Shown here piece by piece: positions 4,603-50,886 of a stretch of DNA of 64,000 nucleotides. The position numbers and the translations under genes were made by a program. The stretch is from contig NZ_CP033073.1 of the NCBI RefSeq assembly GCF_003675325.1, positions 2,170,001-2,234,000 of the forward strand, read 5' to 3'. The notes beneath the pieces were generated by a model that was not told where the DNA came from, searched no databases, and saw only the letters and a program-made list of their open reading frames with translations. The first letter of the stretch is position 1, and each line of letters starts with the position of its first letter. Source of the stretch: Streptomyces dangxiongensis (GTDB lineage: Bacteria > Actinomycetota > Actinomycetes > Streptomycetales > Streptomycetaceae).

Positions 4603-5551
4603 TCACTCCTGCGCCGCCACGATCTGCCGGCACCGCTCCACGTCCACCGCCATCTGCTCCAGCAGAGCCTCGAGCGACTCGAACTTCGCCTGGCCGCGCA
4701 CGAACGCCAGGAAGTCGACGGCGACGTGCAGGCCGTACAGGTCGAGGCCGACGCGGTCGATGGCGTACGCCTCCACCGTGCGCTCGGTGCCGTCGAACTG
4801 CGGGTTCGTGCCGACGGAGATCGCGGCCGGCATGACCTCGCCCTGGGCGTGCAGGTAGCCGGCGTACACGCCGTCGGCGGGGATGGCGGGTGTGCGGCAG
4901 GGTCTCGACGTTGGCGGTCGGGAAGCCCAGTTCACGGCCGCGCTGGGCGCCGCGGACGACGATGCCCTCGACGCGGTGCGGGCGGCCCAGGATCTCGCGG
5001 GCGCCCGCGAGATCGCCCTCCGCGACCAGACGGCGCGTCAGGGTCGAGGAGAACGGCTCGCCGCCGCCCGCCTCACCGGTGACGTACAGGTCGACGACGT
5101 CGACCTCGAAGTCGTAGACCTTGCCCTGCCCGGTGAGGAACTCGACGTTGCCTGCGGCCTTGTGGCCGAAGCGGAAGTTGGGGCCTTCCACGACCGCCTT
5201 GGCGTGCAGCTTGTCCACCAGGACCTTCACCACGAAGTCGGCGGGCGACAGCTTGGAGAACTCGGTGGTGAACGGGAGGATGAGGACCGCCTCGACGCCC
5301 AGCTCGGCCATCAGTTCGGCGCGGCGGTGGTGCGGGGCGAGCAGCGGCGGGTGGCTGCCGGGGCGGACGACCTCGCTGGGGTGCGGGTCGAAGGTGACCA
5401 CGACGGCGGGGACGCCCAGTTCACGGGCGCGGTCGACGGCGTGCTTGATGATCAGCTGGTGGCCGCGGTGGACGCCGTCGTAGGAACCGATGGTGACGAC
5501 GCTGCGCCCCCAGTCCTGGGGGATGTCCTCCAAGCCACGCCAGCGCTGCAC
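4603..5551 (-). CDS. ribF: Bifunctional riboflavin kinase/FAD synthetase RibF (apparent frameshift at 4888-4890)
   Basis: Makes FMN from riboflavin and FAD from FMN. The GTG start at 5551 has AGGAG 8 bases upstream. The N-terminal nucleotidyltransferase domain carries GSYDGVHRGH (residues 22-31), with the HxGH nucleotide site. The flavokinase domain begins around GRELGFPTAN. The frame then breaks: a GGG run at 4888-4890 (plus strand) has one extra base, and beyond it the neighbouring frame continues with AIPADGVYAGYLHAQGE and a normal C-terminus ending at 4603. The corrected length is 315 residues, normal for the family. RibF is usually essential in bacteria, so a real truncation is unlikely and a sequencing or assembly error is the best explanation. 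Confidence 0.9.
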
Positions 5552-33344: not shown

Positions 33345-33358
33345 TCGAAGCGCTTCGA
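33345..33358. promoter_or_regulatory. LacI-type operator 1 (palindrome TCGAAGCGCTTCGA)
   Basis: Perfect 14-bp palindrome, extended to 16 bp with flanking G and C, in the intergenic region 108 bases upstream of the lacI start. The same core appears at three other sites around the xyloglucan locus. The CG-centred, inverted layout is typical of LacI-family operators. Confidence 0.8.
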
Positions 33359-33434: not shown

Positions 33435-33447
33435 TCGAAGCGCTTCA
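33435..33447. promoter_or_regulatory. LacI-type operator 2 (TCGAAGCGCTTCA)
   Basis: Same core GAAGCGCTTC ending 19 bases before the lacI start codon at 33466, placed to block lacI's own promoter. With operator 1 this suggests autoregulation. Nothing else is seen in the 33152-33465 gap. Confidence 0.8.
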
Positions 33448-33465
33448 CCAGGTTGGGAGAGCTGG

Positions 33466-34479
33466 ATGGTCACCCTCGCCGAGGTCGCCCAGCACGCCGG
33501 AGTCTCGGCGAGCACGGTGAGCTATGTCCTCAGCGGCAAGCGGTCCATCTCCACCACCACCCGGCACCGGGTCGAGCAGAGCATCCGGGAACTGGGATAC
33601 CACCCGAACGCGGGTGCCCGCGCCCTGGCGAGCAGCCGTTCCAACATCATCGCGCTGATGATCCCGCTCCGTACCGACATGTACGTGCCGGTGATGATGG
33701 AGATCGCCATCGCGGTGGCCACCACGGCCCGCACGCACGGCTACGACGTCCTGCTGCTCACCGGCGAGGAGGGGCCCGACGCGGTGCGCCGGGTCACCGG
33801 CAGCGGGCTCGCCGACGCCATGATCCTGATGGACGTGGAGCTGGACGACGAGCGGCTCCCGCTGCTGCGGGCGACCGGCCAGCCCTCGGTACTGATCGGC
33901 CTGCCCGCCGACACCGCCGGCCTGACCTGCGTGGATCTGGACTGGAGCGCCACGGGCGCGCTCTGTGTGGAGCACCTGGCCGGGCTCGGCCACCGTGACA
34001 TCGCTGTCATCGGCGAGGCCCCGGCGGTCTACGAGCGACACACCGGCTTCGCCGAGCGCACGCTCGACGGGCTGCGCTCCCGGGCCCGGGAGACGGCGGT
34101 ACGGGTGCTGCACCGGCCCTGCGAGGGCGGATACGACGCGATGGCCCTCACGCTGGCCCGGATCTTCGACGAGCGCCCGGGGACGACCGGGTTCGTGGTG
34201 CAGAACGAGTCGGCGGTGGAGCCGCTGCTCGCGCTGCTGCGCCAGCAGGGCCGGGCCGTGCCCGAGGACGTGTCCGTGGTCGCGGTCTGCCCGGAACAGG
34301 TCGCCGTCCAGGCCTCGGTGCGGCTGACCTCGGTCGCCGTGCCCGCCCAGGAGCTGGGCCGGCACGCCGTGGAACATCTGGTCGCCAAGCTGGAGGGGCG
34401 GGACGGCGACGAGGTCGAGCTGCTCGCACCCGAGCTGACGGTACGGGCGAGTTCGGGACCGGCACCCGCGACGTCCTGA
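33466..34479 (+). CDS. LacI-family transcriptional regulator of the xyloglucan locus, 337 aa
   Basis: Starts at ATG 33466 (upstream open frame is non-coding). The HTH is textbook: VTLAEVAQHAGVSASTVSYV, LSGKRSISTTTRHRVEQSIR, then the hinge helix ALASSRSNIIALMIP. The rest is a periplasmic-binding-protein-like effector domain (GTTGFVVQNESAVEPLLALL). Repressor of sugar genes by family knowledge. The palindromes at 33345, 33435, 47821 and 48001 are the natural candidates for its binding sites. The effector is probably a xyloglucan-derived oligosaccharide, which is inference. Confidence 0.9.
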   Translation: MVTLAEVAQHAGVSASTVSYVLSGKRSISTTTRHRVEQSIRELGYHPNAGARALASSRSNIIALMIPLRTDMYVPVMMEIAIAVATTARTHGYDVLLLTGEEGPDAVRRVTGSGLADAMILMDVELDDERLPLLRATGQPSVLIGLPADTAGLTCVDLDWSATGALCVEHLAGLGHRDIAVIGEAPAVYERHTGFAERTLDGLRSRARETAVRVLHRPCEGGYDAMALTLARIFDERPGTTGFVVQNESAVEPLLALLRQQGRAVPEDVSVVAVCPEQVAVQASVRLTSVAVPAQELGRHAVEHLVAKLEGRDGDEVELLAPELTVRASSGPAPATS

Positions 34480-34754
34480 CCCACCGCGCCCCGGCCCACG
34501 GCCCACCACCGCCGGCCCCACCCCGTCCCCCGGCCCACCACCTTCTCCCCGCCGCTTCCCCGGCGCACCGCCTTCCCCCCCACCCCCACCGCTTTCCGGC
34601 CCACCGCCTCTCACCGACCGCGTCCCGGCCCGTCCCCGCCCGCGCCCCGCGCGCCCCGCGCGCCCCGCGCCCCGCGCCCGCGCCCCCCGCGCCGGTGGGA
34701 TACGCCCGCCCGCCTGTCCCGCATCCGTCCGCACGTCTCTCCTCGGGAGCCGCC
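34480..34754. other. Low-complexity, C-rich spacer
   Basis: The 275-bp gap between lacI and the GH31 gene is strongly C-rich and G-poor on this strand up to about 34690, with runs of GCGCCCCGC units near 34645-34690. No gene or hairpin with clear stem is seen. The GH31 ribosome site (GGGAG) lies at its end. Confidence 0.7.
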
Positions 34755-36794
34755 GTGAACCAGCCTGCCGTCGCGCAGCCCGCGATCAGCCTCGCCCAGT
34801 CCTCCCCCACCGTCGGCACGCTCCGGGAACGGGACGGGGCGCTGGAGTGGAGCGGCCGTCAGGAGACGGTGCGGATCGAGCCGTGGGGTCCGGACGCGGT
34901 CCGGGTGCGGGCCCGGCTCGGCGGCCCGGTGCTCCAGGGGCTGCCCGGGGCACTCCTCGAACCGCCGCCCGCCCCGGGCATCACCGTCGTGACCGGTGAC
35001 GGCGTGGGACGGCTGACCGTCGGCGCCCTGACCGTCGAGGTGTCCGCCGAGGGACTGATCCGCTTTCTGCGCACCGACGACCGTAGCTGCTGGCCGAGGA
35101 GCACGCCCACTTCTGGTGGCCGGGCCCCCGCCTGTACACGGCGGTCGGCAACGGGCACCACCGGCTGGAGCAGCGGTTCGCCGCCTACGAGGGCGAGAAG
35201 CTGTACGGCCCTGGGCCAGCACCAGCACGGCCGCCTCGACCAGAAGGGCCTGGTGCTGGACCTGGTGCAGCGCAACGCCGAGGTCAGCGTGCCGGTGCTG
35301 GTCTCCAGCCGCGGCTACACCCTGCTGTGGAACAACCCGGCGATCGGCCGGGTGGAGCTGGCGGGCAACGGCACCCGGTGGGTCGCGGACTCCGCCCGGC
35401 AGATCGACTACTGGATCACGGCGGGCACGCCGGCCGACGGTCAGCGCGCCTACAGCGCGGTGACCGGGCGGTCGCCGATGCTGCCGGAGTGGGCGGCGGG
35501 CTTCTGGCAGTGCAAGCTGCGCTACCGCACGCAGGACGAACTCCTCGCGGTGGCCCGGGAGTACAGGCGCCGGGGGCTGCCCCTCGCGGCGATCGTCTGC
35601 GACTTCTTCCACTGGACCCACCTGGGCGAGTGGAAGTTCGACCCGAAGGAATGGCCCGACCCGGCGGCGATGGTGCGGGAGCTGGAGGAACTCGGCGTCA
35701 AGCTGGTCGTCTCCGTCTGGCCGTCGGTGTCGCCGCTGTCGGAGAACCACCCGGTGATGGAGCAGCGCGGCCACTTCATCGGCACGCAGTACGGGCCGCT
35801 GGCGCACGCCGACTGGCCGGACAAGGGCGTCGACTCCACCGTCCAGGTCGCGTTCTACGACGCCACGAACCCCGAGGCCCGGGAGTTCGTGTGGTCGCGC
35901 GTCCGCGACAACTACCTGGTCCCGTACGGCATCACCGCCTTCTGGCTGGACGCGTGCGAGCCCGAGCTGAAGCCCGGCTTCCAGGAGAATCTGCGGTACT
36001 GGGCGGGCCCCGGCCTGGAGGTCGGCAACCTCTACCCGGCCGAGAACGCCCGCACCTTCCACGAGGGCCTGCGCGCGTCCGGCGAGCAGGAGGTGATCAC
36101 CCTCAACCGCTCGGCGTGGGCGGGCAGTCAGCGGTACGGTGCCGCGCTGTGGTCCGGTGACATCGGCACCGACTTCGCGACCCTGCGCCGGCAGATAGCG
36201 GCCGGGCTGAACACCGCCCTGTCCGGCATCCCGTGGTGGAACACCGACATCGGCGGCTTCCACGGCGGCGACCCGGACGACCCGGCGTACCGGGAGGTGC
36301 TGGTGCGCTGGTTCCAGTTCGGCGCGCTGTCCCCGCTGATGCGGCTGCACGGTTTCCGGGACCCGGGCATGCCGCTCGGCCCGGAGATGACGGGCGGCCC
36401 GAACGAGGTGTGGTCGTACGGCGAGGAGGCCGGTGCGATCCTGGAGCGCTTCCTGCGGCTGCGCGAGCGGCTGAGGCCGTACGTCCTGACGGTGATGCGG
36501 GAGGCGCACGAGGAGGGTCTGCCGGTGATGCGCCCGCTGTTCCTGGAGTTCCCGGCGGACCAGGCGGCCTGGGCGGTGGACGACGCCTATCTCTTCGGCC
36601 GGGACCTGCTCGTCGCCCCGGTACTGACGGCGGGTGCGACGGCCCGGACGGCGTACCTCCCGGCGGGCGCGCGCTGGACGGACGCGTGGACGGGTGTGAC
36701 GTACGAGGGCGGTGCGGCGGTGACGGTGGACGCGCCGCTGGACCGGATCCCGCTGTTCCTGCGGGACGGGGCGCGGCTGCCGGTCGCGGAGTAG
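34755..36794 (+). CDS. GH31 alpha-xylosidase-like glycosidase, 679 aa (two compensating single-base indels)
   Basis: Releases alpha-linked xylose from xyloglucan oligosaccharides (YicI-like). GTG 34755, GGGAG upstream, no signal peptide, so cytoplasmic. Nucleophile Asp399 is in FWLDACEPE and the acid/base Asp469 in ALWSGDIGTDF; SPLSENH and PWWNTDIGGFHG are also family motifs. Between 35085 and 35211 about 41 codons are read in the wrong frame: one G seems missing at CGT-AG (35084/35085) and one C is extra in the CCC at 35209-35211. With both corrected, a normal RELLAEEHAHFWWPGPRLY segment appears. Whether alpha-xylosidase or alpha-glucosidase activity dominates is inferred from context with xyloglucanases. 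Confidence 0.85.
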   Translation: MNQPAVAQPAISLAQSSPTVGTLRERDGALEWSGRQETVRIEPWGPDAVRVRARLGGPVLQGLPGALLEPPPAPGITVVTGDGVGRLTVGALTVEVSAEGLIRFLRTDDRSCWPRSTPTSGGRAPACTRRSATGTTGWSSGSPPTRARSCTALGQHQHGRLDQKGLVLDLVQRNAEVSVPVLVSSRGYTLLWNNPAIGRVELAGNGTRWVADSARQIDYWITAGTPADGQRAYSAVTGRSPMLPEWAAGFWQCKLRYRTQDELLAVAREYRRRGLPLAAIVCDFFHWTHLGEWKFDPKEWPDPAAMVRELEELGVKLVVSVWPSVSPLSENHPVMEQRGHFIGTQYGPLAHADWPDKGVDSTVQVAFYDATNPEAREFVWSRVRDNYLVPYGITAFWLDACEPELKPGFQENLRYWAGPGLEVGNLYPAENARTFHEGLRASGEQEVITLNRSAWAGSQRYGAALWSGDIGTDFATLRRQIAAGLNTALSGIPWWNTDIGGFHGGDPDDPAYREVLVRWFQFGALSPLMRLHGFRDPGMPLGPEMTGGPNEVWSYGEEAGAILERFLRLRERLRPYVLTVMREAHEEGLPVMRPLFLEFPADQAAWAVDDAYLFGRDLLVAPVLTAGATARTAYLPAGARWTDAWTGVTYEGGAAVTVDAPLDRIPLFLRDGARLPVAE

Positions 36795-36802
36795 GACCGG
36801 GA

Positions 36803-36833
36803 GGGGCCGGCCCCTGGAGAGGGAGCCGGCCCC
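36803..36833. terminator. Hairpin between convergent GH31 and GH12 genes
   Basis: 9-bp stem GGGGCCGGC/GCCGGCCCC with a 13-base loop, in the 45-base space between the two stop codons; likely bidirectional. Confidence 0.65.
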
Positions 36834-36839
36834 GACGGC

Positions 36840-37553
36840 TCAGCCGCTGCTGACGCTGAGGCTGTTGGTGGTGAAGTCCAGTCCGCCGGATGAGGACGTG
36901 ATCTCGTAGCCGAACTGGACGTCGCCGATGGTCACGTTGCCGAACCAGCCCTTGGTGTCTTTGATCCACTTCAGGATCGGCAGGATGTTGACCGTGCCGG
37001 AGCCGGAGTTGGAGCTGCGGACGAAGGAGAAGACCTCGTTGGAGCCGTTGTTGCCCTTGTAGACGGTCCAGGTTGAACCGCCGAGGGTGACGGTGCCCTG
37101 GGAGCCGCCGAGCGGGCCGACGGCGCCGGTCTTGTTGACCCAGAGCATGATCTCGTACTTGTAGCCGGTGTCCCAGATGTCGTACGACGTGTTGTACGCG
37201 CCGGACGCCGGGACGGTGACGTTGTAGCTGCTGGTGAGGGAGGTCAGGGAGCCGATCGGCTTGTTGATGACCTTCTTGGCGTTGGGGTAGGACTTGATGC
37301 CGCCGGTGTTCGGGTGGTTCGCCCGGACGCCCCAGTTGGTGCCGGAGTCGGCCCAGATGCACTGGCTGCCGGCGCCGGAGCCCCAGATGTCGTTGTAGAG
37401 GGTGTAGCCGTTCAGGGTGGTGCTGCCCCACTGGTCGCAGGAGTTCCAGACGGCGGCGGAGGCGGGTGCCGAGGCGAGGCCGACGGTGGCGCCGAGGGCG
37501 AGGGCGGGGGCGATCAGGGCCTTGACGACCCTGGTCCGTGTGCTTGTTGCCAT
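36840..37553 (-). CDS. Secreted GH12 endo-glucanase/xyloglucanase, 237 aa
   Basis: Extracellular hydrolase that cuts the beta-1,4-glucan backbone. Sec signal peptide about residues 1-33 (ending PASA). The beta-jelly-roll domain begins AVWNSCDQWGSTTLNG. The nucleophile Glu134 is in KYEIMLWVN and the acid/base Glu217 in QFGYEITSS. No cellulose-binding module. Last gene of the minus-strand operon, overlapping the GH95 3' end by 40 bases. GH12 includes xyloglucan-specific and general cellulases; the locus favours xyloglucan. Confidence 0.9.
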   Translation of the reverse strand: MATSTRTRVVKALIAPALALGATVGLASAPASAAVWNSCDQWGSTTLNGYTLYNDIWGSGAGSQCIWADSGTNWGVRANHPNTGGIKSYPNAKKVINKPIGSLTSLTSSYNVTVPASGAYNTSYDIWDTGYKYEIMLWVNKTGAVGPLGGSQGTVTLGGSTWTVYKGNNGSNEVFSFVRSSNSGSGTVNILPILKWIKDTKGWFGNVTIGDVQFGYEITSSSGGLDFTTNSLSVSSG

Positions 37554-39793
37554 GGTGTCCCTTCCATGGGTGGGGGAGGTGGGGGAGGTGGTGCTGGTTG
37601 CCGCGCCCTCAGGGTGAGGACGCGTTCTTCTCCGGCGACCAGGTCGAGCGGCTCGGCGCCGGAGGAAGTCCGCAGTTCGATGCGGTGGGTGCGGTGGGGC
37701 CGCAGGACGGCGCGGACACCGTCCGGGCTCCAGCCGAGGTCGAGTTCCGCGCCGAACCGGGTGCGTATGCCGCGCAGTTCACCGCTGGGGCAGGCGTCCG
37801 GTACGGCCGGCAGCAGGACCAGCCGGTGGGGGGTGGACTGGACGAGCATCTCGATCAGCACGCCGGGCAGGGTGTGCGCGGCGTCCGCGTTGTAGACGTC
37901 GCGGTGCGGGTAGTGGGCGCTCATCAGGGAGGCGTGGAAGAAGTCGCCGGCCAGGACCCGGCGCAGGGCGCCGGCGGCCCGGGCGGTGTCCCCTAGCCGG
38001 GCGGCGACCAGGGCGTGGTGCAGGTGGCCGTGGGCGGAGTCGTTCTCGGCACCGCGCAGGGCGAGCGCCCGGCGGGCTGCGGCGGCCAGGCGCGGGGTGT
38101 CGTACGGGTTGATCTCCTCCAGCGGCCAGACGCCGTACAGGTGGCTGAGGTGACGGTGGTCGTAGTTGTCGTCGAGTCCCGGCCAGGCCCATTCGGCGAG
38201 GGCGCCGTCGGCGTTGATCCGGTGCGGGGGCAGCCGGTCCGCCAGGGCCGACCAGGCGGCGGCGCGTTCGGGGTGGTACCGGGCGGCGGTGCGCAGGGTG
38301 TGCCGGGCGGCGGAGAGGTCCATGGCCGCGTTGACCGCGGCCGGGCCGCCGTTCGCGGGGCGGTTCTCGGGCGAGTAGGAGGGTACGACGACGAGGTGGC
38401 CGTCGGCGTCGGTGCGGGTGAGGAAGTCCTCGTAGAAGACGGCCGCCTCGGCGAGGGCGGCGGCGGTGCGCGGGTCCTGGGCGCCGCGGATCTCGTCGTG
38501 GTCGACCAGCGGTTTGAGCAGCCAGTCCGCGCCGGCGGTCCACAGATGCAGCGGGTGGTCGCGGCTGAAGTGGTACGTCAGCCCGGACTCGCCGTCGGTG
38601 TGCGAGGGCGCGACCGCGCCCCGGGCGCCGAAGACGGCGCGCGCGTTGGCCCGCCAGTCCGGCAACTGCCGCTCGATGAGGGCGGCCAGGGATTCGGTGA
38701 CCTCGGGCAGGGCGGCGGCGGGTGCGGCGGCGGTCTGGAGGTTGAGGTTGGCGTTCGTGGTGAACGCCCCCGACCAGGCGGTATCCCAGTCGCCGGTCCA
38801 CAGTCCGGTGAGCCGGGGCGGGAGCAGGCCGCTGCTGGAGAGCAGGTGGTAGCGGCCGGCGGCGAAGAGCCGTTCCAGCAGGGCCGGGCTGTGCGGGCGC
38901 CGCAGCAGTTCGGAGCCGGGCAGGGCGCGCTCGGCCGGATCGGCGCCGAGGTCGAGGGTCACCCGCAGGTAGGCGGCGCGGTGCCGGGCCAGATGGCGGC
39001 CGAGCAGGCTGTCGTACGACCGCTCGGTGCCGTCGAGCAGGTCCTGGAGCTGCCGGGCCTCTGCGACGACGTCCGCCTCGCCGCTGTGCCGGCGCACCCG
39101 GGTGAGCAGCAGCACCGAGCGGGCGCCGGTGACGCGGACGCCCTGTGGGACGAGTTCGGTACGGCCGCCGACGGCGGCGACGAGGGTCACGCCGGTGTAG
39201 GCGCGGTCGCTGTCCGGGTAGCGGGCGCGCAGGCTGAGCAGGGCGCCCTCGGGGGTGAGCAGGGTGCCCTGGCCGACCCGCAGTCCGGTGGGGGCGCCCG
39301 GCAGCCGGTGGTCCAGGCAGACATCGAGATCGCCGGCGGTGACCTCGTGCACGATGACGTCGTCGGCGCGGGAGACGAAGACGCGGCTGCCGGTGCCGGC
39401 GCGGACCGCGGTGACCTCGCCGGTGGTGAAGTCGACGGCACGGTGGTGGCCGTCGGGCCCGGCGCCCGCCGGTCTGCGCAGCCGGATCCGGAAGGCCGGA
39501 TGGAAGGGCTGCACCCACTGCAACGGCCGGCCGTCGGTGAAGCTGTCGGCGGCGGTGAGGTCGCCGGCGAGCAACCGGTCCTGGACGGCGGGCAGTTCCG
39601 CGGCGAGCCGGGGTGGCCGGGCGTGCTCGGCGCCGTTGGGCCGCACCAGGGTGTGATGGGTGACGACGACCCGCTCGTCGTTCGGGTCACCGGACACGAG
39701 GGCGCCGTGGTGGCCGTTCCCGCTCAGGAAGGCGTCCTCCCAGCGGGCGGCCGCGGCCGGTTCCCAGGTGCCGTGGACCGGGGTGCGGCTCAT
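37514..39793 (-). CDS. GH95 alpha-L-fucosidase-like enzyme, 759 aa
   Basis: Removes alpha-1,2-linked fucose from the side chains of xyloglucan. The N-terminal GH95 domain starts GTWEPAAAARWEDAFLSGNG; the central (alpha/alpha)6 barrel includes WTGDWDTAWSGAFTTNANLN and DNYDHRHLSHLYGVWP. No signal peptide, so it acts on imported oligosaccharides. The ATG at 39793 overlaps the GH42 stop (ATGA). The reading frame runs on through a stretch of eight prolines and over the GH12 start before its stop at 37514, an unusual end. Confidence 0.85.
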   Translation of the reverse strand: MSRTPVHGTWEPAAAARWEDAFLSGNGHHGALVSGDPNDERVVVTHHTLVRPNGAEHARPPRLAAELPAVQDRLLAGDLTAADSFTDGRPLQWVQPFHPAFRIRLRRPAGAGPDGHHRAVDFTTGEVTAVRAGTGSRVFVSRADDVIVHEVTAGDLDVCLDHRLPGAPTGLRVGQGTLLTPEGALLSLRARYPDSDRAYTGVTLVAAVGGRTELVPQGVRVTGARSVLLLTRVRRHSGEADVVAEARQLQDLLDGTERSYDSLLGRHLARHRAAYLRVTLDLGADPAERALPGSELLRRPHSPALLERLFAAGRYHLLSSSGLLPPRLTGLWTGDWDTAWSGAFTTNANLNLQTAAAPAAALPEVTESLAALIERQLPDWRANARAVFGARGAVAPSHTDGESGLTYHFSRDHPLHLWTAGADWLLKPLVDHDEIRGAQDPRTAAALAEAAVFYEDFLTRTDADGHLVVVPSYSPENRPANGGPAAVNAAMDLSAARHTLRTAARYHPERAAAWSALADRLPPHRINADGALAEWAWPGLDDNYDHRHLSHLYGVWPLEEINPYDTPRLAAAARRALALRGAENDSAHGHLHHALVAARLGDTARAAGALRRVLAGDFFHASLMSAHYPHRDVYNADAAHTLPGVLIEMLVQSTPHRLVLLPAVPDACPSGELRGIRTRFGAELDLGWSPDGVRAVLRPHRTHRIELRTSSGAEPLDLVAGEERVLTLRARQPAPPPPPPPPMEGTPWQQAHGPGSSRP

Positions 39794-41766
39794 GACCGCA
39801 GCACCGCCACCCCGTGGCGGCCGAGGGTGACCTCGTCCGTGACGTCCGTACCGCCGAGCAGGTCGTGATGCGTGCCGGGCACCTGGACGGTGATCTGCTC
39901 CCGCCCGTGGTTGAGCAGGAACAGCAGCTCCCCGCGGCGCACCGCCTCCACCCCCGCCGGGAGCCCGTCGAGCACCGGCCGCACCCCCGCGCCCGCGGCG
40001 ATGCCGGACAGCAGGGTGCGCAGCGCGTCCGGCTCGGGGAGGGTGGAGACGTACCAGGCGCGGCCCCGGCGCAGCACGGCGGGCAGCCCGTCGAGTTCGC
40101 CGCCCCGGTACGGCACGGTCTCGGCGGCCCCCGGCTCCGGTTCGATCTCCTCCGACCACAGCGTGCCGCGGAAGCCCTCGCACGCCACGGTCTCCCCCGC
40201 CTCCAGCGGCCACCACTCGTGCAGGGTGCGGATGCCGAACAGCTCGCGCAGCCGGGCGTCCATGCCGCCGGTCCTGACCCGGTCGTCCTCGTCGGCGACG
40301 CCGGTGAGGAAACCGCAGACGAGGGTGGAGCCGCCGCGGACGTACGCGAGGAGGTTGGCGACGGCGGCGTCGGTGAGGAGGTACAACTGCGGGACGACGA
40401 CGAGCCGGTAGCCGGACAGGTCGTGCTCCGGGTGGGCGAAGTCGGTGGTCAGATGGGCCTCCCACAGGGCCCGGTGCCATGCGGTGAGCACCTCCGGGAG
40501 GTCCACGAGCGTCGACAGCCGCCCCTCGTGCGCGCCGGCCCACCAGGAGTGCCAGTCGTGCAGGACGACGACGTCCGCGTCGATCCGGCCGCCGCTCACG
40601 TCCCCTGAGATCCGCTCCAGTTCGGCCCCGAGCTGCCGGACCTCCTGGTAGGCGCGGCCCTGCTCCCCCGCGTGGCCGACCATCCCGGAGTGGAACTTCT
40701 CGGCGCCCTGCCGGGACTGGCGCCACTGGAAGTAGCAGACGGCGTCGGCGCCGCGGGCGACGGCCTGGAACGACCACAGGCGGTTGAGACCGCGCGGCTT
40801 GGGGTGGTTCACACCTCGCCAGTTGACCGGTCCGGCCGCCTGTTCCATGAGCATCCACGGCCCGCGCGCCTGCGAACGGGTGAGGTCCTGCACGAGCGCC
40901 CCGTGCTGCGCGCCCAGCGGATCGCGCGGGTCGGGGTAGAGGTCGACGGAGACGACGTCCTCCTCCCGGGCCCAGCGCCAGGCGTCCTGCCCGATCCACA
41001 GCGGCATGAAGTTGGTGGTCACGGGGAGGTGCGGGGTGTGCCGGCGGACGATGTCCCGTTCGGCGGTGTAGCACTCCAGGAGCATGTCGGAGGTGAAGCG
41101 GCGGAAGTCCAGCACCTGGCCGGGGTTCTTCAGGTAGTGGTGGGCGCGGCGTGGGGGCAGGATGCCGTCCCAGGTGTCGTAGCCCTGGCTCCAGAAGGCG
41201 GTTCCCCAGGCGGAGTTGAGCGCGTCCAGGGTGGTGTAGCGCTGCCGTAGCCAGCGGCGGAAGGCGGCGGCGGCCTCGTCGCCGTGATCGGCGGTGCAGT
41301 ACTCGTTGTTGATGTGCCACATGGTGAGGGCCGGGTGGGTGCCGTAGCGGGCGGCGAGGTCCTCGGTGATGGCGGCGGCGTACCGGCGGTAGGTGGCGCT
41401 GGAGTGCGAGAAGTGCTGCCGGCCGCCCCACCACTCGATGTGGCCGTCGGCGTCCCGGGGCAGGGTGTCGGGGTGCAGCCGGCCCATCCAGGGCGGCGGG
41501 GAGGACGTGGGCGTGGCGAGGACGACGCCGATGCCGTTGTCGTGCAGGAGGTCCATGAGCCGGTCCAGCCAGCCGAACTCGCGTGCTCCCGGCTCGGGTT
41601 CGAGTCGGGACCAGGAGAAGACGCCGAGGGTGACGGAGTTGACCCCCCGGGCCTGCTTCATCAGCCGGACGTCGTCCTGCCAGGTCTCCTCGGGCCACTG
41701 CTCGGGGTTGTAGTCGCCGCCGAAGAGGATGCGGCCCCGGGTGGCGTCGGCGAGGGCCGGTTTCAT
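39790..41766 (-). CDS. GH42 beta-galactosidase, 658 aa
   Basis: Removes galactose from xyloglucan side chains in the cytoplasm. ATG 41766 gives MKPALADATRGRILFGGDYN, a typical GH42 start (GGDYNPEQW). Catalytic acid/base Glu155 (MWHINNEY) and nucleophile Glu308 (WMLMEQAAGPVNWR) are in place; the trimerisation and C-terminal beta domains follow. No signal peptide. Coupled to GH74 upstream and GH95 downstream through four-base overlaps. GH42 is unusual here, since GH2 or GH35 galactosidases are more often found in xyloglucan systems. Confidence 0.9.
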   Translation of the reverse strand: MKPALADATRGRILFGGDYNPEQWPEETWQDDVRLMKQARGVNSVTLGVFSWSRLEPEPGAREFGWLDRLMDLLHDNGIGVVLATPTSSPPPWMGRLHPDTLPRDADGHIEWWGGRQHFSHSSATYRRYAAAITEDLAARYGTHPALTMWHINNEYCTADHGDEAAAAFRRWLRQRYTTLDALNSAWGTAFWSQGYDTWDGILPPRRAHHYLKNPGQVLDFRRFTSDMLLECYTAERDIVRRHTPHLPVTTNFMPLWIGQDAWRWAREEDVVSVDLYPDPRDPLGAQHGALVQDLTRSQARGPWMLMEQAAGPVNWRGVNHPKPRGLNRLWSFQAVARGADAVCYFQWRQSRQGAEKFHSGMVGHAGEQGRAYQEVRQLGAELERISGDVSGGRIDADVVVLHDWHSWWAGAHEGRLSTLVDLPEVLTAWHRALWEAHLTTDFAHPEHDLSGYRLVVVPQLYLLTDAAVANLLAYVRGGSTLVCGFLTGVADEDDRVRTGGMDARLRELFGIRTLHEWWPLEAGETVACEGFRGTLWSEEIEPEPGAAETVPYRGGELDGLPAVLRRGRAWYVSTLPEPDALRTLLSGIAAGAGVRPVLDGLPAGVEAVRRGELLFLLNHGREQITVQVPGTHHDLLGGTDVTDEVTLGRHGVAVLRS

Positions 41767-43929: not shown

Positions 43930-43970
43930 GGGGTACCTCACTGGACGCGGGTGGGGGTGGGTGGTCCGGG

Positions 43971-43995
43971 GCCGGGGGTGGGTCTCTCCCCCGGC
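43971..43995. terminator. Possible intercistronic hairpin before GH74
   Basis: 8-bp stem GCCGGGGG/CCCCCGGC with a 9-base loop in the 80-base gap between the permease and GH74. It may attenuate transcription into the hydrolase genes; weak evidence. Confidence 0.35.
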
Positions 43996-44009
43996 TTCCA
44001 CGGGGTCGG

Positions 44010-44969
44010 TCAGCCCTTCACCGCTCCCGTCAGCATCCCCTTGCGGAAGTGCTTCTGGACGAACGGCGACAGCACGGCGACCGGCAGCAGGGCCATCACC
44101 ATGACCGCCATCTGCACGGCCAGCCCGGACAGTTCACCCGTCTTGATGGCCTGCCCGAGGCCCACGGGGGCCTCCTGTTTCTGCACGAGCTGGATCATGA
44201 CGTTCTGGAGCGGCATCATGTCCTGCTCGTTGAGGTAAAGCGACGCGTTGAACCAGGCGCTCCAGTACCCGACCGCGTAGAACAGCGTGATCACCGCGAG
44301 GACGGCCCGGGAGAGCGGCATCACGATCTGCCACAGGATGCGGATGTCCCCCGCCCCGTCGATGCGCGCGCTGTCGGTCAGTTCGGGCGAGATGCCCATG
44401 AAGAAGCCCCGCAGGACGAGGATGTTGAAGACGCTGACCGCGCTGGGAAGGATCAGCGCGAGGTAGGTGTCGGTCAGCCCGAGGGACTGCACCAGCAGGT
44501 ACGTCGGGATGAGCCCGGCGCTGAAGAACATGGTGGCCATCAGCACCATCAGGATCCACCGGTGCCCCAGCGACCCGCTGCGCGAGAGGCCGTAGGCGCA
44601 CAGCACGGACACGGTCATCGAGAAGACCGTGCCGACCAGCGTGACGACGATGCTGACGAGCGCGGCCCGGGTGACCTGGCCGCCGCTGAGCAGTTCCCGG
44701 TAGGCGACGAAGGTGATGCCCTTGGGGACCATGACCAGGCCGCCGGCCTCGTCGATGGTCTTCCGCGAGGACAGGCTGGTGACGAGGACGATCCACAGCG
44801 GGAAGAGGACGCCCAGGCAGGCGAGCGTGAGCACGAGGCTCTTGCCCGCGAGGCCCGCCCCGCCCGGCTTCTCCTCCCACGCCGGGCGGGGCGGGGCGGC
44901 CCACCGGCGCGGCCGGTCCACCACCGGGTCCGCCGCCGGGTCCGCCGGTCGGCCGAGGACGGCTGTCAC
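44010..44969 (-). CDS. Carbohydrate ABC transporter permease (LplC/MalG type), 319 aa
   Basis: Second membrane subunit of a CUT1 sugar importer. GTG at 44969 overlaps the first permease's stop (GTGA). Six membrane helices are visible, starting with SLVLTLACLGVLFPLWIVLV. The EAA loop is of the form SARIDGAGDIRILWQIVMPL. N-terminal 40 residues are cytoplasmic and Pro/Arg-rich. Belongs to the divergently controlled operon beginning with the binding protein at 47713. Confidence 0.92.
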   Translation of the reverse strand: MTAVLGRPADPAADPVVDRPRRWAAPPRPAWEEKPGGAGLAGKSLVLTLACLGVLFPLWIVLVTSLSSRKTIDEAGGLVMVPKGITFVAYRELLSGGQVTRAALVSIVVTLVGTVFSMTVSVLCAYGLSRSGSLGHRWILMVLMATMFFSAGLIPTYLLVQSLGLTDTYLALILPSAVSVFNILVLRGFFMGISPELTDSARIDGAGDIRILWQIVMPLSRAVLAVITLFYAVGYWSAWFNASLYLNEQDMMPLQNVMIQLVQKQEAPVGLGQAIKTGELSGLAVQMAVMVMALLPVAVLSPFVQKHFRKGMLTGAVKG

Positions 44970-45997
44970 TTCCGGTACACCCCCTGCTCGCCCATGAGAT
45001 GGGCCACCTTGTTGGCGGCGAGGACCAGGCCGATGCTGACCACGCCCTTGACGAGACCGGCGGCGGCCGCGTAGCCGAAGTCCTGGTTGCGGACGCCGTT
45101 CCACCACACGAAGGTGTCCAGGACCTCGGAGGCGCCCGGTCCGACCGCGTCGCGCTGGAGCAGGATCTGCTCGAAGCCGACGGTCAGCGCGTCACCCACG
45201 CGCAGCACCAGCAGCAGCGCGATCACCGGGCGCAGCGCGGGCAGCGTGACGTGCCACATGCGGCGCCGGCGGCCGGCGCCGTCCATCGCGGCGGCCTCGT
45301 ACAGATCGGGGCTGACGGAGGCCAGTGCGGCGAGGAAGACGATGATCCCCCAGCCGGCGTCCTTCCACACGCTCTGCGCGGTGACGAGGAACTTGAAGGT
45401 GTCGGGGTCGGTCATGATGTCGAGGCCGTCGAAGCCGTGCTGCCGCATCAGTTGGGAGAACAGCCCGGCGCCGCCCAGGAGTTGCTGGAACACGGCGACG
45501 ACCAGCACCCAGGAGAAGAAGTGCGGCAGGTAGAGGACGGCCTGCGCGACGGCCCGCACCCGGGGCCGGACGACGCTGTTGATGAGCAGCGCGAGGAGGA
45601 TCGGGACCGGGAAGTAGAGGACTAGCTGGAGGACGAAGAGCACCAGCGTGTTCCACATCGCGTTCCAGAACGCGGAGTCCTGGAAGATCTGCTGGAAGTT
45701 GGCCAGGCCGACCCAGGGGCTGTGCAGGATGGAGACGACGCCGTTGTCGCTGACGTAGGGGTCGTAGTCCTCGAAGGCGACGATGTTGCCGAGGATCGGC
45801 AGGTAGTTGAAGAGCAGGAGCAGGACGACGGCCGGGAGCGTCATCAGGAGCAGGACGCGGTCGCGTCCGAATCTCAGGCGCAGGCTCGGCCTCGCCGCGC
45901 GTCGTCTGTCACGGGAACCGGTGGCGTCGCCGGACGCCGCCGGGGTCGCAGTCATGTCGGCCTCGGCCCTGCTCCGAGGCACCGTGCTGTGGGACAC
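44966..45997 (-). CDS. Carbohydrate ABC transporter permease (LplB/MalF type), 343 aa
   Basis: First membrane subunit of the CUT1 importer. GTG at 45997 has AAGGAG 6 bases upstream. The N-terminus is basic, then LLLMTLPAVVLLLLFNYLPI begins the membrane part; the EAA loop YEAAAMDGAGRRRRMWHVTL contacts the ATPase. LplB-like permeases typically accompany lipoproteins for large oligosaccharides or aldouronates. No ATPase gene is present in the locus, so a shared ATPase such as MsiK is likely. Confidence 0.92.
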   Translation of the reverse strand: MSHSTVPRSRAEADMTATPAASGDATGSRDRRRAARPSLRLRFGRDRVLLLMTLPAVVLLLLFNYLPILGNIVAFEDYDPYVSDNGVVSILHSPWVGLANFQQIFQDSAFWNAMWNTLVLFVLQLVLYFPVPILLALLINSVVRPRVRAVAQAVLYLPHFFSWVLVVAVFQQLLGGAGLFSQLMRQHGFDGLDIMTDPDTFKFLVTAQSVWKDAGWGIIVFLAALASVSPDLYEAAAMDGAGRRRRMWHVTLPALRPVIALLLVLRVGDALTVGFEQILLQRDAVGPGASEVLDTFVWWNGVRNQDFGYAAAAGLVKGVVSIGLVLAANKVAHLMGEQGVYRK

Positions 45998-46024
45998 GGA
46001 CTTCTCCTTGCCTCGTGCCTCGGG

Positions 46025-47713
46025 TCAGCCGGCCGCCGGGCCGTTCTCGTCGAGGATCTTCTTGTACCAGTCGCGCAGCTTGTCGCCGCCCCTGCTCCTC
46101 CAGTCGGAGACGGCCTGCTGCATGTCGCCGATCTTCTTGCGCCCGCGCACGACGTCGTCCTCCAACTGCTCGAAGTCGTTGCCGAGGTTGGTGTAGCGGC
46201 TGGGCTCGGTGATCTGCATGCCGTAGAAGGAGGACTTGGTGGTGAAGGCGCCCATCCGCTGCTGCCACTCGACCTGGCCCTTGGCGACCTCGGGGAAGTC
46301 GGGGTGGGCGATGGTCGGGGCGGGACTCGCGATCATGACGTAGGCGTTGAGCACGTCGATGTTGCCCTGGTCGGTCTTGGTGGGCACACCCTTCTTGACG
46401 GTGTAGTGGGTGCCCTCGACGCCGTAGTTGGTGAGCATGTACTCCTTGGTGCCGTACGGCGCGGCGGTGGCGTCGGCGACGGCGAGCACGTCCCGGATCA
46501 CCGCTTCGGAGGCCTTCTTGTTGACGAAGGCGAAGATCCCGGCGGGCTGTTCTGCCCACAGGTGCGGGTCACCGCCGTCGTGGCCGAAGACGTCCATGCC
46601 CCAGATCTTGAACTCGGGGTTGTGGGTGGCCTGTTCGGCGGTACGGCTCCACCACTGCGAGATGTTGTTGGCGTAGATGAGGAACTCGCCCGCCGCGAAC
46701 TTGGGGCCGGGGTCGGTGGCCTGGCTCTTGCCGAGCTCGGCGTCGGGATGCACGACGCCGGCGGCGAAGAGCTTGCGGGTCCATTCCAGTGTCTCGAGGT
46801 ACTCGTCGGTCTCGATGCGGTTGACGAGCTTGCCGTCGGTCAGGTTCCAGCCGAGCGGCTTCTCGCTGCCGGAAAACACGCCGAACATCTGGAAGGCGGT
46901 CCACTTCATGTCGAGACAGGCCCACCGCTTGGCCTTGGCATTGGTGATGTCCTTGGCGAGGGCCATGAACTCGTCCGCCGAGCGCGGCACCCGGTAGCCC
47001 TCCTTGTCGAAGACGTCCTTGCGGTACAGGGGCACGATGCCGGTGACGTACGGGGCGGGCTGGGGCAGGCCGCGCAGCTTGCCGCCGAAGATGGAGCGCT
47101 GCCAGGCGTCCGTGGGGATCGCGGCCAGGTTCGGGTAGTCCTTGACGGCGTCGCCGGAGAGGTAGGGGCCGAGGTCGGCGAACTTGGAGATGACGGCGCT
47201 GGGGATCTTGCCGTTCATGTTCCAGCCGGGGATGACCACCACGTCGGGGACGTCGCTGGAGGCGAGGACCGCGCCGAGCTTCTGCTCGTAGGTGTTGCCG
47301 TCCTGGTTCTGCCACCGGACGTCGACGCCGACGAGGTCGTTCATCGCCCTGTAGTAGGCGTTGTCCTGCTTGGGCGGGGAGCCCCAGAACGGCGACATGA
47401 CGGTGACCTTGTTGCCCTTGCCGAGCTTCCTGGGCACGGACGTCTTCAGGCCGGCGAGGTCGAGCCGGTGGGTGAACCCGGCGGCCGAGCCGTTCTTGGC
47501 GGGGATGTCCGGCGCCACCACGTTTCCGGCCACGTACGCCGGGAGCAGTTTCCTGGCGTTCTTGCCGGCCGAGGTGCCTCCCCGCGCACCGCTGTCCGCG
47601 CTTCCGCAGGCGGTGAGCAGCGGCATCCCCCCGGTCACCGCCGCGGCGGCGACCGCGGTGGAGGCGAGGAAGGTTCTCCTGCTGGGAGCGGAGGAGGCGG
47701 CGTTCGGCGTCAT
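46025..47713 (-). CDS. Sugar ABC transporter substrate-binding lipoprotein, 562 aa
   Basis: Extracellular solute-binding protein (LplA/YtcQ-like) anchored to the membrane: twin-arginine SRRTFLASTAVAAAAVTGG leads to the lipobox LLTAC, Cys36. At 562 residues it is larger than simple maltose-type binders, as for long oligosaccharides. ATG 47713 with GAAGGG 8 bases upstream; the longer frame upstream is not coding. First gene of the importer-hydrolase operon. Ligand by context: xyloglucan oligosaccharides. Conserved features include APYVTGIVPLYRKDVFDK and GMDVFGHDGGDPHLWAEQP. Confidence 0.92.
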   Translation of the reverse strand: MTPNAASSAPSRRTFLASTAVAAAAVTGGMPLLTACGSADSGARGGTSAGKNARKLLPAYVAGNVVAPDIPAKNGSAAGFTHRLDLAGLKTSVPRKLGKGNKVTVMSPFWGSPPKQDNAYYRAMNDLVGVDVRWQNQDGNTYEQKLGAVLASSDVPDVVVIPGWNMNGKIPSAVISKFADLGPYLSGDAVKDYPNLAAIPTDAWQRSIFGGKLRGLPQPAPYVTGIVPLYRKDVFDKEGYRVPRSADEFMALAKDITNAKAKRWACLDMKWTAFQMFGVFSGSEKPLGWNLTDGKLVNRIETDEYLETLEWTRKLFAAGVVHPDAELGKSQATDPGPKFAAGEFLIYANNISQWWSRTAEQATHNPEFKIWGMDVFGHDGGDPHLWAEQPAGIFAFVNKKASEAVIRDVLAVADATAAPYGTKEYMLTNYGVEGTHYTVKKGVPTKTDQGNIDVLNAYVMIASPAPTIAHPDFPEVAKGQVEWQQRMGAFTTKSSFYGMQITEPSRYTNLGNDFEQLEDDVVRGRKKIGDMQQAVSDWRSRGGDKLRDWYKKILDENGPAAG

Positions 47714-47820
47714 TGCGTCAACCCTTCGTGGCGCACCAGGACACCCGGCGGTGGCCGTCGGCTGCGGTGTCTCGAGTGGATCTGGCTGAGCGGAAGCGTT
47801 CTCCGGTGCGGACTCGGCAG

Positions 47821-47834
47821 TCGAAGCGCTTCGA
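47821..47834. promoter_or_regulatory. LacI-type operator 3 (TCGAAGCGCTTCGA)
   Basis: Perfect palindrome in the 338-bp divergent promoter region 47714-48051, 108 bases upstream of the binding-protein start. Same sequence as operator 1 before lacI, placing the importer-hydrolase operon under the same regulator. Confidence 0.85.
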
Positions 47835-48000
47835 TGTTGCTGCGAGGTTAAGTGAACGCCTGGGGGCACACAAGGGCCGTCACCAAGATTCCTGTGATCT
47901 CCGGTGACCGCCAGGGAAGTCGGTTACGCCTGTGGCAGCAAGGAGAAGTCGGTGATGTTTCGCCCCGGCACCTTGACACCCGGCCGCGTCCGGCTGAGCA

Positions 48001-48014
48001 TCGAAGCGCTTCGA
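48001..48014. promoter_or_regulatory. LacI-type operator 4 (TCGAAGCGCTTCGA)
   Basis: Perfect palindrome ending 37 bases before the GH3 start codon (48052) and 180 bases from operator 3; paired operators could allow looping. Controls GH3 and possibly both divergent promoters. Confidence 0.85.
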
Positions 48015-48051
48015 AAGCGTCGTGCCGCTCCATTCGCAAGGGGAACCACTC

Positions 48052-50886
48052 GTGACCGTCGACTCGCCGTCCACCCCGCCCTTCCGCGATCCGCTTCTGC
48101 CGTTCGCGAAGCGCGTCGAGGACCTGCTGGCCCGGCTCACCCGTGAGGAGAAGATCTCCTTCCTGCACCAGTTCACGCCCGCCGTGGAGCGTCTGGGCAT
48201 CGCCGCCTGGCGGACCGGCCAGGAGGCGCTGCACGGCGTGGCCTGGATGGGCCCGGCGACGGTGTTCCCGCAGGCCGTCGGCCTCGGCGCGACCTGGAAC
48301 CCGGACCTCGTACGACGGATCGGCGAGGCGGTGTCCAGGGAGATCCGCGCGATGCGCGCCCGCGACGAGCGGGTCGGCCTCAACGTCTGGGCCCCGACGG
48401 TCAACCTGCTGCGCCACCCGCTGTGGGGGCGTAACGAGGAGGGCTACGCGGAGGACCCGAAGCTGACATCGGCCATCGCCACGGCGTACACCCACGGTCT
48501 GCGGGGCGACCACCCCCGGTACTGGCGTACCGCCCCCGTACTGAAGCACTGGCTGGCCCACAACAACGAGCAGGACCGCGCCACTTCGTCGTCCTCCGTG
48601 CCTCCGCGCGTGCTGCACGAGTACGACCTGCGCGCCTTCCGGGACACGGTCGAGGCGGGCGCGGTGGCCGGGGTGATGCCGGCCTACAACCTGGTCAACG
48701 GCCGCCCCAACCACGTCTCCCCCTACCTGCGCGAGCACCTGCGCACCTGGACCGACGAGGAGCTGCTGGTCTGCTCGGACGCGGGCGCGCCCTCCAACCT
48801 GGTCGACGCGGAGCACTACTTCGACACCCACGAGGCGGCCACCGCGGCGGCCCTGCTGGCCGGCGTGGACAGCTTCACCGACCACGGCACGGACGGCACG
48901 CTGATCACCGCCCGGGTCCGAGGGGCCCTCACCCGGGGCCTGTTGACGGAGGCGGACATCGACACCGCCGTGCGCCGCCAACTGTCCGTCCGTTTCCGGC
49001 TCGGCGAGTTCGACCCGCGGCACGACCCGCACGCGGGCACCGGCGCGTTCGACACCCCCGCGCACCGGGCGCTCGCGCAGGAGGCCGCCGAGCAGGCGAT
49101 CGTACTGCTGAAGAACGACGGCGACCTGCTGCCGCTCGCCCCGGACACCCGTCTCGCGGTCGTCGGCCTGCTCGCCGACGAGTGCAAGCTGGACTGGTAC
49201 AGCGGCAGCCTCCTGCACCGCTCCACCCCGCTGGAAGGCCTTTACGAGCGGTTCGGCGCGGAGCGGGTGCGGTTCGCGGAGGGCGTGGACCGGGTCCGGC
49301 TGCGGACGGCGGCCGGCGCGTTCCTCGCCGTGCCCGTGGCCGACGCCCCCGACGAGACGCGCGGCGCCGAGGGCGCCCTGGACCCCGCGCTGCTGTCCGG
49401 GCGCACCGACCTGCCGCCGGTCACCACCGACGCCACCGGCACCGAGTTCGCGCTGGCCGACTGGGGCGAGGGAGTGCTGACCCTGCGCGCCCCCGACGGC
49501 CGCTACCTCTCGGTCGCCGAGGACGGCTACGTCCGGGCCTCCGCCGACCAGCCCGGCGGCTGGGTCGTCCAGGAGACGTTCCGCCTGGAACCGCACCACG
49601 ACGGTCACCTCCTCAAGCACCTGGGCACGGGTCGTCATCTCCGTGTCGCCGCCGACGGCCTGCGGGTTGCCGACACGGGTGACGTGTTCGAGGTGGTCAC
49701 GGTCGAACGGGGCGAGGACGCGGTGGCCCGGGTGGCGGGCGAGGCCGACGTCGTCGTGGTGGTGGCGGGCAACGACCCGCACATCAACGGCCGCGAGACC
49801 GAGGACCGTACGACGCTGCTGCTGCCGGAGCACCAGCAGCGGCTGCTGCGCGCGGCCCGGGCGGCCAACCCGCGCACCGTGCTGGCGCTCGTGTCGGCGT
49901 ACCCGTACGCGGTGGACGCGGCCTCACTCCCGGCCGCGCTGTGGACGGCGCACGGCGGGCAGGCGGCGGGCACCGCGCTGGCCCGGGTGCTGGCCGGCGA
50001 CGTCTCCCCGGCCGGCCGCCTCCCCCAGACCTGGTACGCCGACGACGCCGATCTGCCCGGCCTCCTCGACTACGACGTGATCGGCGGCCGGCAGACCTAC
50101 CTCTACTTCGACGGCAGCCCGCTCTTCCCGTTCGGCCACGGCCTGTCGTACGCGTCCTTCGCGTACGCCGGCCTGACGGCCCGCGTCCGGGCCGGCTCCG
50201 TCCTCGTGAGCTGCACGGTCGGCAACACCGGGGGCCGGCCGGCGGACGAGGTGGTCCAGCTCTACGGCCGGGCCGTGGACCCCTCGGTGCCCCGCCCGCG
50301 CCGCGAACTGCTGGACCACCGCCGGCTCACGCTCGCCCCCGGCGAGACGGCCGAGGTCACGTTCGAGGTCCCGCTGTCCGCGCTGGAGTTCTGGGACGTG
50401 GCGCACGGCGTCCGGCGACTGGAGGACGGCCCGTACGAGCTGCTGGTCGGGGCGTCCAGCGAGGACGTACGGCTGCGCACGACCGTCCGCCCCGGGGGCC
50501 GGCCCGCCACCCCGCGACCGCTGCTGGAACGGGGCCTTCCGGCCGTCGACTTCGACGAGCAGTCCGGCATCGCGATCGTGGACTGGACGAGAACGGCGGG
50601 CGACGCGGTGACCCCGGCCCACGACCGGACCGCTGAACTCGTCTACCGCGCCTGCGACTTCGGCCCCGGGGTGACCGAGGTGACCGCACACCTGGCGGGC
50701 GAGGGGACCCTGGAGGTGTCCCTGGACGGCGGCCCGGTGCTGGCCGCCCTCACCCTGGACACCCCCACCGCCGGCCCGTACGCCTACACCACCCGCACCA
50801 CCGGACTCGTCACCGCGGGCGTCCACGACGTCCGCCTCACGCTGCGCGGCCCCCTGCGGCTCGCGCACGTCGGTTTCCCCGGCTGA
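48052..50886 (+). CDS. GH3 beta-glucosidase/xylosidase with fascin-like insert, 944 aa
   Basis: Completes xyloglucan oligosaccharide breakdown by removing beta-linked glucose. GTG 48052 is preferred (AAGGGG 8 bases upstream) over ATG 48022. N-terminal barrel with nucleophile Asp243 in LLVCSDAGAPSN; C-terminal domain with candidate acid/base Glu582 in NGRETEDRTTLLLP. Between them residues about 420-560 resemble a fascin-like beta-trefoil (LTLRAPDGRYLSVAEDG, LLKHLGTGRHLRVAADG). An FnIII-like domain follows (to about 810), then a C-terminal CBM6-like region with a VEVSL-type strand (TLEVSLDGGPVLAALTL). No signal peptide. Exact substrate uncertain. Confidence 0.88.
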   Translation: MTVDSPSTPPFRDPLLPFAKRVEDLLARLTREEKISFLHQFTPAVERLGIAAWRTGQEALHGVAWMGPATVFPQAVGLGATWNPDLVRRIGEAVSREIRAMRARDERVGLNVWAPTVNLLRHPLWGRNEEGYAEDPKLTSAIATAYTHGLRGDHPRYWRTAPVLKHWLAHNNEQDRATSSSSVPPRVLHEYDLRAFRDTVEAGAVAGVMPAYNLVNGRPNHVSPYLREHLRTWTDEELLVCSDAGAPSNLVDAEHYFDTHEAATAAALLAGVDSFTDHGTDGTLITARVRGALTRGLLTEADIDTAVRRQLSVRFRLGEFDPRHDPHAGTGAFDTPAHRALAQEAAEQAIVLLKNDGDLLPLAPDTRLAVVGLLADECKLDWYSGSLLHRSTPLEGLYERFGAERVRFAEGVDRVRLRTAAGAFLAVPVADAPDETRGAEGALDPALLSGRTDLPPVTTDATGTEFALADWGEGVLTLRAPDGRYLSVAEDGYVRASADQPGGWVVQETFRLEPHHDGHLLKHLGTGRHLRVAADGLRVADTGDVFEVVTVERGEDAVARVAGEADVVVVVAGNDPHINGRETEDRTTLLLPEHQQRLLRAARAANPRTVLALVSAYPYAVDAASLPAALWTAHGGQAAGTALARVLAGDVSPAGRLPQTWYADDADLPGLLDYDVIGGRQTYLYFDGSPLFPFGHGLSYASFAYAGLTARVRAGSVLVSCTVGNTGGRPADEVVQLYGRAVDPSVPRPRRELLDHRRLTLAPGETAEVTFEVPLSALEFWDVAHGVRRLEDGPYELLVGASSEDVRLRTTVRPGGRPATPRPLLERGLPAVDFDEQSGIAIVDWTRTAGDAVTPAHDRTAELVYRACDFGPGVTEVTAHLAGEGTLEVSLDGGPVLAALTLDTPTAGPYAYTTRTTGLVTAGVHDVRLTLRGPLRLAHVGFPG

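Follow-up and report, generated by a model that had tools for sequence, protein, structure and literature searches.

The window analysed here is a stretch of 64,000 nucleotides from Streptomyces dangxiongensis, 2.17-2.234 Mb of contig C2 (8.09 Mb) in an 8.16-Mb genome of two contigs, and it holds what is very probably a locus for the use of xyloglucan under a dedicated repressor of the LacI family. As can be seen in Table 1, lacI, GH31 and GH3 lie on the plus strand, while the minus strand carries, from 47713 down to 36840, the genes for a binding protein, two permeases, GH74, GH42, GH95 and GH12. The original prediction, made from the letters of this stretch, had placed a LacI-controlled xyloglucan locus here, and this is well supported by the families, by the closest relatives of known structure and by conservation of the operator. 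The gene families that it named all emerged again from profile searches, and its strands and outer limits hold, with the ATG of lacI at 33466 and the stop of GH3 at 50886.

The lacI product combines a LacI helix-turn-helix with a periplasmic-binding-like domain, both with Pfam scores over the cut-off. The minus-strand genes had been described as an operon with four-base overlaps, which is true of three of its six junctions (permease 1/permease 2, GH74/GH42 and GH42/GH95); the other three are a 27-nucleotide gap, an 80-nucleotide gap and a 40-nucleotide overlap between GH95 and GH12. By eye, we recognized a Sec-type signal in GH12, an RR (Tat-like) signal in GH74 and a lipobox in the binding protein, but no signal peptide in GH42, GH95, GH31 and GH3, in agreement with the division into secreted and signal-less enzymes that had been proposed. 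The start codon of GH3 was also picked by eye. A terminator scan found nothing, and the 16 open frames scanned in the locus and its immediate flanks included no two-component regulator, LacI standing in its place.

The nearest solved relatives of the enzymes suggest their activities. The best PDB match of GH31 is the alpha-xylosidase MeXyl31 (5zn6, E value 2.5e-194), and GH42 is nearest to beta-galactosidases (9ta3, 1.5e-161). The C-terminal piece of GH74 matches 5jwz (2.9e-128) and the xyloglucanases 6p2o, 6p2n and 6mgj, and the best match of GH12 is 6sdu (8.1e-45). The latter is NopAA, a xyloglucan hydrolase according to the part of PMC7303141 available to us. GH12 also matches the NCBI family PRK06215, which is still named hypothetical protein. 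As for GH95, its best PDB match is 7kmq (2.3e-58), the PF22124 catalytic domain is present, and the SPEN motif, within which we take an acid residue to act, is invariant in 11 of 11 aligned sequences; its predicted structure is poor (predicted local distance difference test score, pLDDT, 58). We regard GH95 as a candidate alpha-1,2-L-fucosidase, which would act on Fuc-alpha-1,2-Gal. The gene extends past the end of the match to the GH95 of relative L002 (37601) through a proline-rich tail (37514-37600) into the overlap with GH12, and 8 of the 10 aligned relatives end ahead of this tail. Coverage of every xyloglucan linkage would hinge on the specificities of GH95 and GH3, which the sequence leaves unsettled.

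The importer is represented by the binding protein and the two permeases. A sequence profile built from 14 binding proteins gave no match to a close relative of known structure, and the predicted fold of the binding protein, a large protein, appears nearest to cluster G proteins, with AlgQ and FusA closest. Cluster G is the class to which PMC12710961, in the part available to us, assigns what it describes as the earliest structurally solved binding protein for xyloglucan oligosaccharides; 9PMY, the structure belonging to the Anaerocellum bescii importer, was absent both from the profile matches and from the best 50 fold matches listed. The ligand of the protein described here is suggested by its context. 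We detected no gene for an ATPase in the locus. CUT1 importers generally use a shared MsiK-type ATPase encoded elsewhere, and OB_MalK has four matches in the genome, three of them over the cut-off and none in the window. A MalK-type ATPase with an OB domain is encoded just beyond the window end, at C2:2235166-2235963, and is only a candidate partner of this importer. The locus had been called self-contained, which was overstated, since no such ATPase gene turned up there and another site, possibly under shared control, is located elsewhere in the genome.

Table 1. Genes and regulatory sites of the locus, in window coordinates; functions are assigned by family and context.
Feature	Position	Strand	Evidence or remark
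Distal lacI operator TCGAAGCGCTTCGA	33345..33358		perfect 14-bp palindrome
Proximal lacI operator TCGAAGCGCTTCAC, variant	33435..33448		17 nucleotides ahead of the start codon; position conserved
lacI, LacI/GalR-family repressor, 337 amino acids	33466..34479	+	PF00356 3.5e-18, PF13377 3.6e-26
GH31, putative alpha-xylosidase, local out-of-frame stretch	34755..36794	+	PF01055 1.4e-81; MeXyl31 5zn6
GH12, putative secreted endo-xyloglucanase, 237 amino acids	36840..37553	-	PF01670 5.7e-20; 6sdu
GH95, candidate alpha-L-fucosidase, cytoplasmic	37514..39793	-	PF22124 1.9e-63; 7kmq
GH42, predicted beta-galactosidase, cytoplasmic, 658 amino acids	39790..41766	-	PF02449 3e-147; 9ta3
GH74, predicted endo-xyloglucanase, RR signal, frameshift-split	41763..43929	-	C-terminal piece matched to 5jwz; N-terminal piece in a different frame
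ABC permease 2	44010..44969	-	PF00528 6.5e-8; UgpE-like, under cut-off
ABC permease 1	44966..45997	-	PF00528 1.4e-16; UgpA-like, under cut-off
Lipoprotein solute-binding protein	46025..47713	-	cluster-G-like predicted fold
Importer-operon operator TCGAAGCGCTTCGA	47821..47834		perfect copy, conserved
TTGACA, candidate -35 box of GH3	47973..47978	+	every base at least 90% conserved in 31 relatives
GH3 operator TCGAAGCGCTTCGA	48001..48014		perfect copy, conserved
GH3, putative beta-glucosidase, no signal	48052..50886	+	PF00933 1.5e-33, PF01915 1.3e-47, C-terminal PF03422 (CBM_6) 1.4e-8

The regulation is the new element here. The genome holds three perfect copies of the palindrome TCGAAGCGCTTCGA, and all are at the locus, upstream of lacI, of the importer operon and of GH3. 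The relatives counted for these sites come from loci found through conserved GH42 DNA translated one base out of frame, a biased sample of at least 42, of which 41 are from Streptomyces, each with a GH42 match in the correct frame; the counts exclude the remaining one, L043, a weak match from an uncultured Litoreibacter. Counting required lacI, the binding protein and GH3 in the stretch, which dropped 10 of the 41 Streptomyces loci, six of them short (L010, L014, L017, L031, L033 and L042) and four long with no such lacI (L006, L012, L019 and L023). The presence of these three genes in 31 of 31 loci is therefore no result, and GH42 was itself the query. The four long loci do have the operators between GH3 and importer, and their regulator may lie elsewhere. 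Each of the 31 counted loci has at least two sites with the core GAAGCGCTTC upstream of lacI. Each also has two operator copies in the interval separating the binding-protein gene from GH3, and outside these two regions the stretch examined shows no copy. On the GH3 side, 17 bases separate TTGACA from a hexamer downstream, which reads GAGCAT in the window and is at least 90% conserved in its last five bases; the sixth base of this hexamer is the first of the operator. The operator would thus overlap the GH3 start region, which suits repression.

The palindrome also travels with the repressor. We looked for the 14-mer in 101 sampled Streptomyces genomes: all 56 LacI-positive ones (match at E <= 1e-80) contain it, as do 3 of the 45 negatives, that is, sampled genomes outside the positive list; the Fisher p of 3e-25 is not one of independent events because the genomes are related. 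A control pattern, the operator read backward, gave 20 sites in the same scan versus 212 for the operator. In four of the positive genomes (G055, G058, G069 and G094) the only LacI matched is more distant (best E values 1e-102 to 1e-114), with 54-58% identity in the three matches listed. Seen at the locus, conserved and co-occurring with the repressor gene, the palindrome is predicted to be the operator to which this LacI binds. Further sites in the genome are found at C2:682038 and at C2:7942603, the latter apparently inside a coding region. We found no paper on the operator, and a search of the open literature, outside the scope of which most subscription papers lie, gave none that we recognized as naming the locus or the operator among the matches listed.

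Such gene sets are common in Streptomyces, and the arrangement is not rare. The original prediction had found it much less familiar than its Bacteroides counterparts; it may indeed be little described, but it recurs in the loci fetched from named Streptomyces, and many genomes of the genus carry its LacI. Across the 31 loci, both permeases are present in 31, GH12 in 30, GH95 in 27, and GH74 and GH31 in 21 each, with the full set of GH12, GH31, GH42, GH74 and GH95 in 16. Of 199 sampled Streptomyces genomes, 118 have a LacI match at E <= 1e-80, or 112 at no less than 72% identity once six with a distant LacI only are removed. A class-level search matched it at 1e-70 in 44 of 296 genomes, 17 from Streptomyces and 27 from outside the genus. 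We hand-picked 40 stretches around LacI, 23 from the genus and 17 from the 27 matching genomes outside it. The latter (L113-L129) contain a perfect operator in 15 of 17 cases, and 11 of the 17 have at least one match to GH31, GH42, GH95 or GH74, the other six having GH3 (tblastn at 1e-8, some matches weak). Since only 13 of 20 genus stretches hold a GH42 at least 62% identical (L150 holds a 45% one), the count of LacI is not a count of loci. Two genus stretches, L142 (genome G137) and L143 (genome G182), have a LacI 75-76% identical with neither a locus-gene match nor a perfect operator in 20 kb.

Together, these features suggest how the locus might work. Without substrate, LacI would sit on the TCGAAGCGCTTCGA sites ahead of three units, namely lacI (probably with GH31 behind it by read-through), the importer-enzyme operon and GH3. 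Secreted GH12 and GH74 would cut the xyloglucan backbone, and the lipoprotein-dependent ABC importer, energized by an ATPase encoded elsewhere, would take in the oligosaccharides. In the cytoplasm these would be trimmed in turn, with GH95 removing the terminal L-sugar, GH42 the galactose, GH31 the xylose and GH3 the glucose, and a product of import would release LacI. The same repressor would perhaps also control a distant YicI-type GH31 and a second importer.

This second site lies 2 Mb from the locus, where the variant operators GTGAAGCGCTTCGA and TCGAAGCGCTTCAA are found at C2:218246 and C2:218628 (near 6245 and 6629 of L102, the stretch C2:212001-225000). There, a YicI-type GH31 gene is divergent from a binding-protein gene with permeases, and the first variant site falls in the 5' part of yicI. 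The best PDB matches of this GH31 are entries named yicI (E values of 2e-281 and better), and YicI is presumably an alpha-xylosidase. We propose with moderate confidence that the window LacI acts on this site in trans. Regulation by some other protein appears rather unlikely, although it would fit the variant nature of the distal sites, the second LacI, about 55% identical, that stands beside a YicI-type GH31 in some relatives (L130), and the 14 of 29 relatives whose yicI stretches, each of about 5 kb or less, show neither the operator core nor GH3. Set against it, the genome has a single LacI match at E <= 1e-80, and no LacI domain was found in the nine open frames scanned of the 13-kb distal stretch. 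Moreover, the four closest relatives (L154-L157) keep two core sites at the same place by yicI, and in 10 of the other 25 yicI lies behind a GH3 that is 56-63% identical over the part examined. In genome G065 the GH3 ahead of yicI is, by its coordinates, the GH3 of the locus, and the interval from the importer gene to yicI in L173 carries two perfect operators.

Taken jointly, the two sites would fit a class-wide xyloglucan regulon of actinomycetes, in which one orthologous LacI reads TCGAAGCGCTTCGA and serves variously ordered sets of GH12, GH74, GH95, GH42, GH31 and GH3 with cluster G importers. In Streptomyces this regulon would have two tiers, the main locus admitting intact oligosaccharides and the distal YicI-importer site being controlled in trans by the same LacI and scavenging isoprimeverose-like fragments, one of them the inducer. 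We hold this wider proposal tentatively, at a little short of an even chance, odds that were lowered slightly because 14 of the 29 yicI stretches show no link. The literature search turned up no name for such a regulon among the matches listed.

The locus had also been called complete, and its families are all there, but GH74 and GH31 are out of frame in this assembly. GH74 changes frame at 43,684/43,685 (minus strand), where the L002 protein splits by tblastn into two pieces in frames -2 and -3; a frame-switch scan places the break at 43686. All 27 related loci passing the filter have the two halves in a single open frame. In GH31, about 120 bases (35,078-35,200, plus strand) read in frame +2 and the rest in +3, a pair of shifts that cancel out, and the same stretch keeps the frame in all 21 related loci that have this GH31, by a motif test that asks only for FW ahead of a GQ motif. 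We read both breaks as probable sequencing or indel errors rather than signs of dead genes because this assembly carries an excess of frame switches. In 18 stretches (360 kb) outside the window we counted 9, versus 1 in 19 stretches (380 kb) from a species of the same genus with its genome in one contig (two-sided binomial, p 0.01); with the three switches inside the window the count is 12 versus 1 (p 0.004), and the figure is also given without the window because its two known breaks prompted the scan. The scan, which looks for changes of coding frame with no nearby stop, is a simple and rough method, trained on both compared genomes and otherwise uncalibrated. Further signals near 4888 of the window and in stretches L086, L087, L090, L092, L095, L096, L100 and L101 indicate indel errors elsewhere in the assembly.

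The frame breaks in two genes, together with the differing gene content of relatives (the full enzyme set in 16 of 31, GH74 in 21 and GH31 in 21), could also mean that the locus is decaying. GH74 and perhaps GH31 would then be true pseudogenes, in a strain that imports and trims the oligosaccharides of others and cuts the backbone with GH12 alone. We consider this improbable, in view of the excess of frame switches outside the window and of the two GH31 shifts that cancel each other. If the breaks are errors, they are a warning that working genes can look dead in this assembly.

Several observations weigh against a xyloglucan locus governed by its own LacI. As assembled, GH74 and GH31 are not intact. 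GH95 is distant from the solved members of its family, and the motif of the best of them is only partly present in it; the NCBIfam model nearest to GH3, far under its cut-off, is a beta-xylosidase; and matches to GH31 outside the genus are in part only 26-32% identical. On the regulatory side, a generic promoter scan found no promoter at either regulatory region, and loose operator matches (up to three mismatches) show a mild excess in the window, with 8 found versus 3.6 expected and 3 of 100 shuffles reaching that number. The four long loci have operators with no such lacI in the stretch examined, and LacI persists in L134, L136 and L152, which show a reduced locus or none. That the substrate is instead some other glucan oligosaccharide bearing galactose, xylose or fucose, or else a beta-glucan mixture, is very improbable: GH3, GH42, GH95 and GH12 are each multi-specific families, but one operator-linked set unites GH74 with a GH31 whose nearest solved relative is an alpha-xylosidase, and such enzymes recur beside this LacI outside the genus. 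The locus is real, well conserved and probably functional, and it is of a known kind.

The Bacteroides XyGUL targets xyloglucan too, but here import is by an ABC transporter, with no SusC/SusD among the 16 frames scanned. PMC4780118 also mentions XyGUL. In Ruminiclostridium cellulolyticum, import followed by trimming with GH42, GH31 and GH3 is proven, according to the part of PMC4780118 available to us. Its cluster (Gal42A, Xyl31A, Glu3A and an ABC importer) likewise pairs a binding protein and two permeases with cytoplasmic GH42, GH31 and GH3; it differs in having a two-component regulator (XygS/XygR) and cellulosomal xyloglucanases, whereas the locus described here has LacI with its operator, secreted GH12 and GH74, and GH95 within the locus. 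The legend of Figure 12 in the same paper reports similar clusters in cellulosome-producing firmicutes and some distant procaryotes, with alpha-fucosidase genes drawn, and these may include actinobacteria. The Athe_2052-2054 importer of Anaerocellum bescii (PMC12710961, in the part available) is likewise a xyloglucan-oligosaccharide importer of a Gram-positive bacterium with the cluster G fold, which is predicted in our case. This likeness is one of class, with the ligand on our side proposed from context.

Within Streptomyces, CebR also belongs to the LacI family. The portion of PMC5332605 available to us describes its cello-oligosaccharide regulon, which resembles the present one in its palindromic box, both boxes having the centre AGCGCT. 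The boxes themselves differ (TGGGAGCGCTCCCA in S. scabies versus TCGAAGCGCTTCGA here), as do the gene sets, and for the GH74 of S. scabies the table of CebR boxes gives ND. Some Streptomyces grow on tamarind xyloglucan, as reported for 4 of 6 strains (PMC11475409), and a Streptomyces Xgh74A and an alpha-xylosidase have been linked to tomato loci (PMC9203511); the available parts of these two papers do not describe this locus or its operator. Streptomyces are soil decomposers and xyloglucan is a main hemicellulose of primary plant walls, and a repressor readable from sequence, with its 14-base operator, may allow growth on this polymer to be predicted from genome data. It may also provide a regulon that is small and directly testable.

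Finally, some relatives carry additional genes inside the locus. A sulfotransferase-family gene (PF13469) is present in six of the nine relatives scanned, between GH12 and GH31 in L005, L009, L020, L021 and L028 and between GH95 and GH31 in L035, and the other three have a chorismate mutase (L003 and L041) or an FAD-binding protein (L024).

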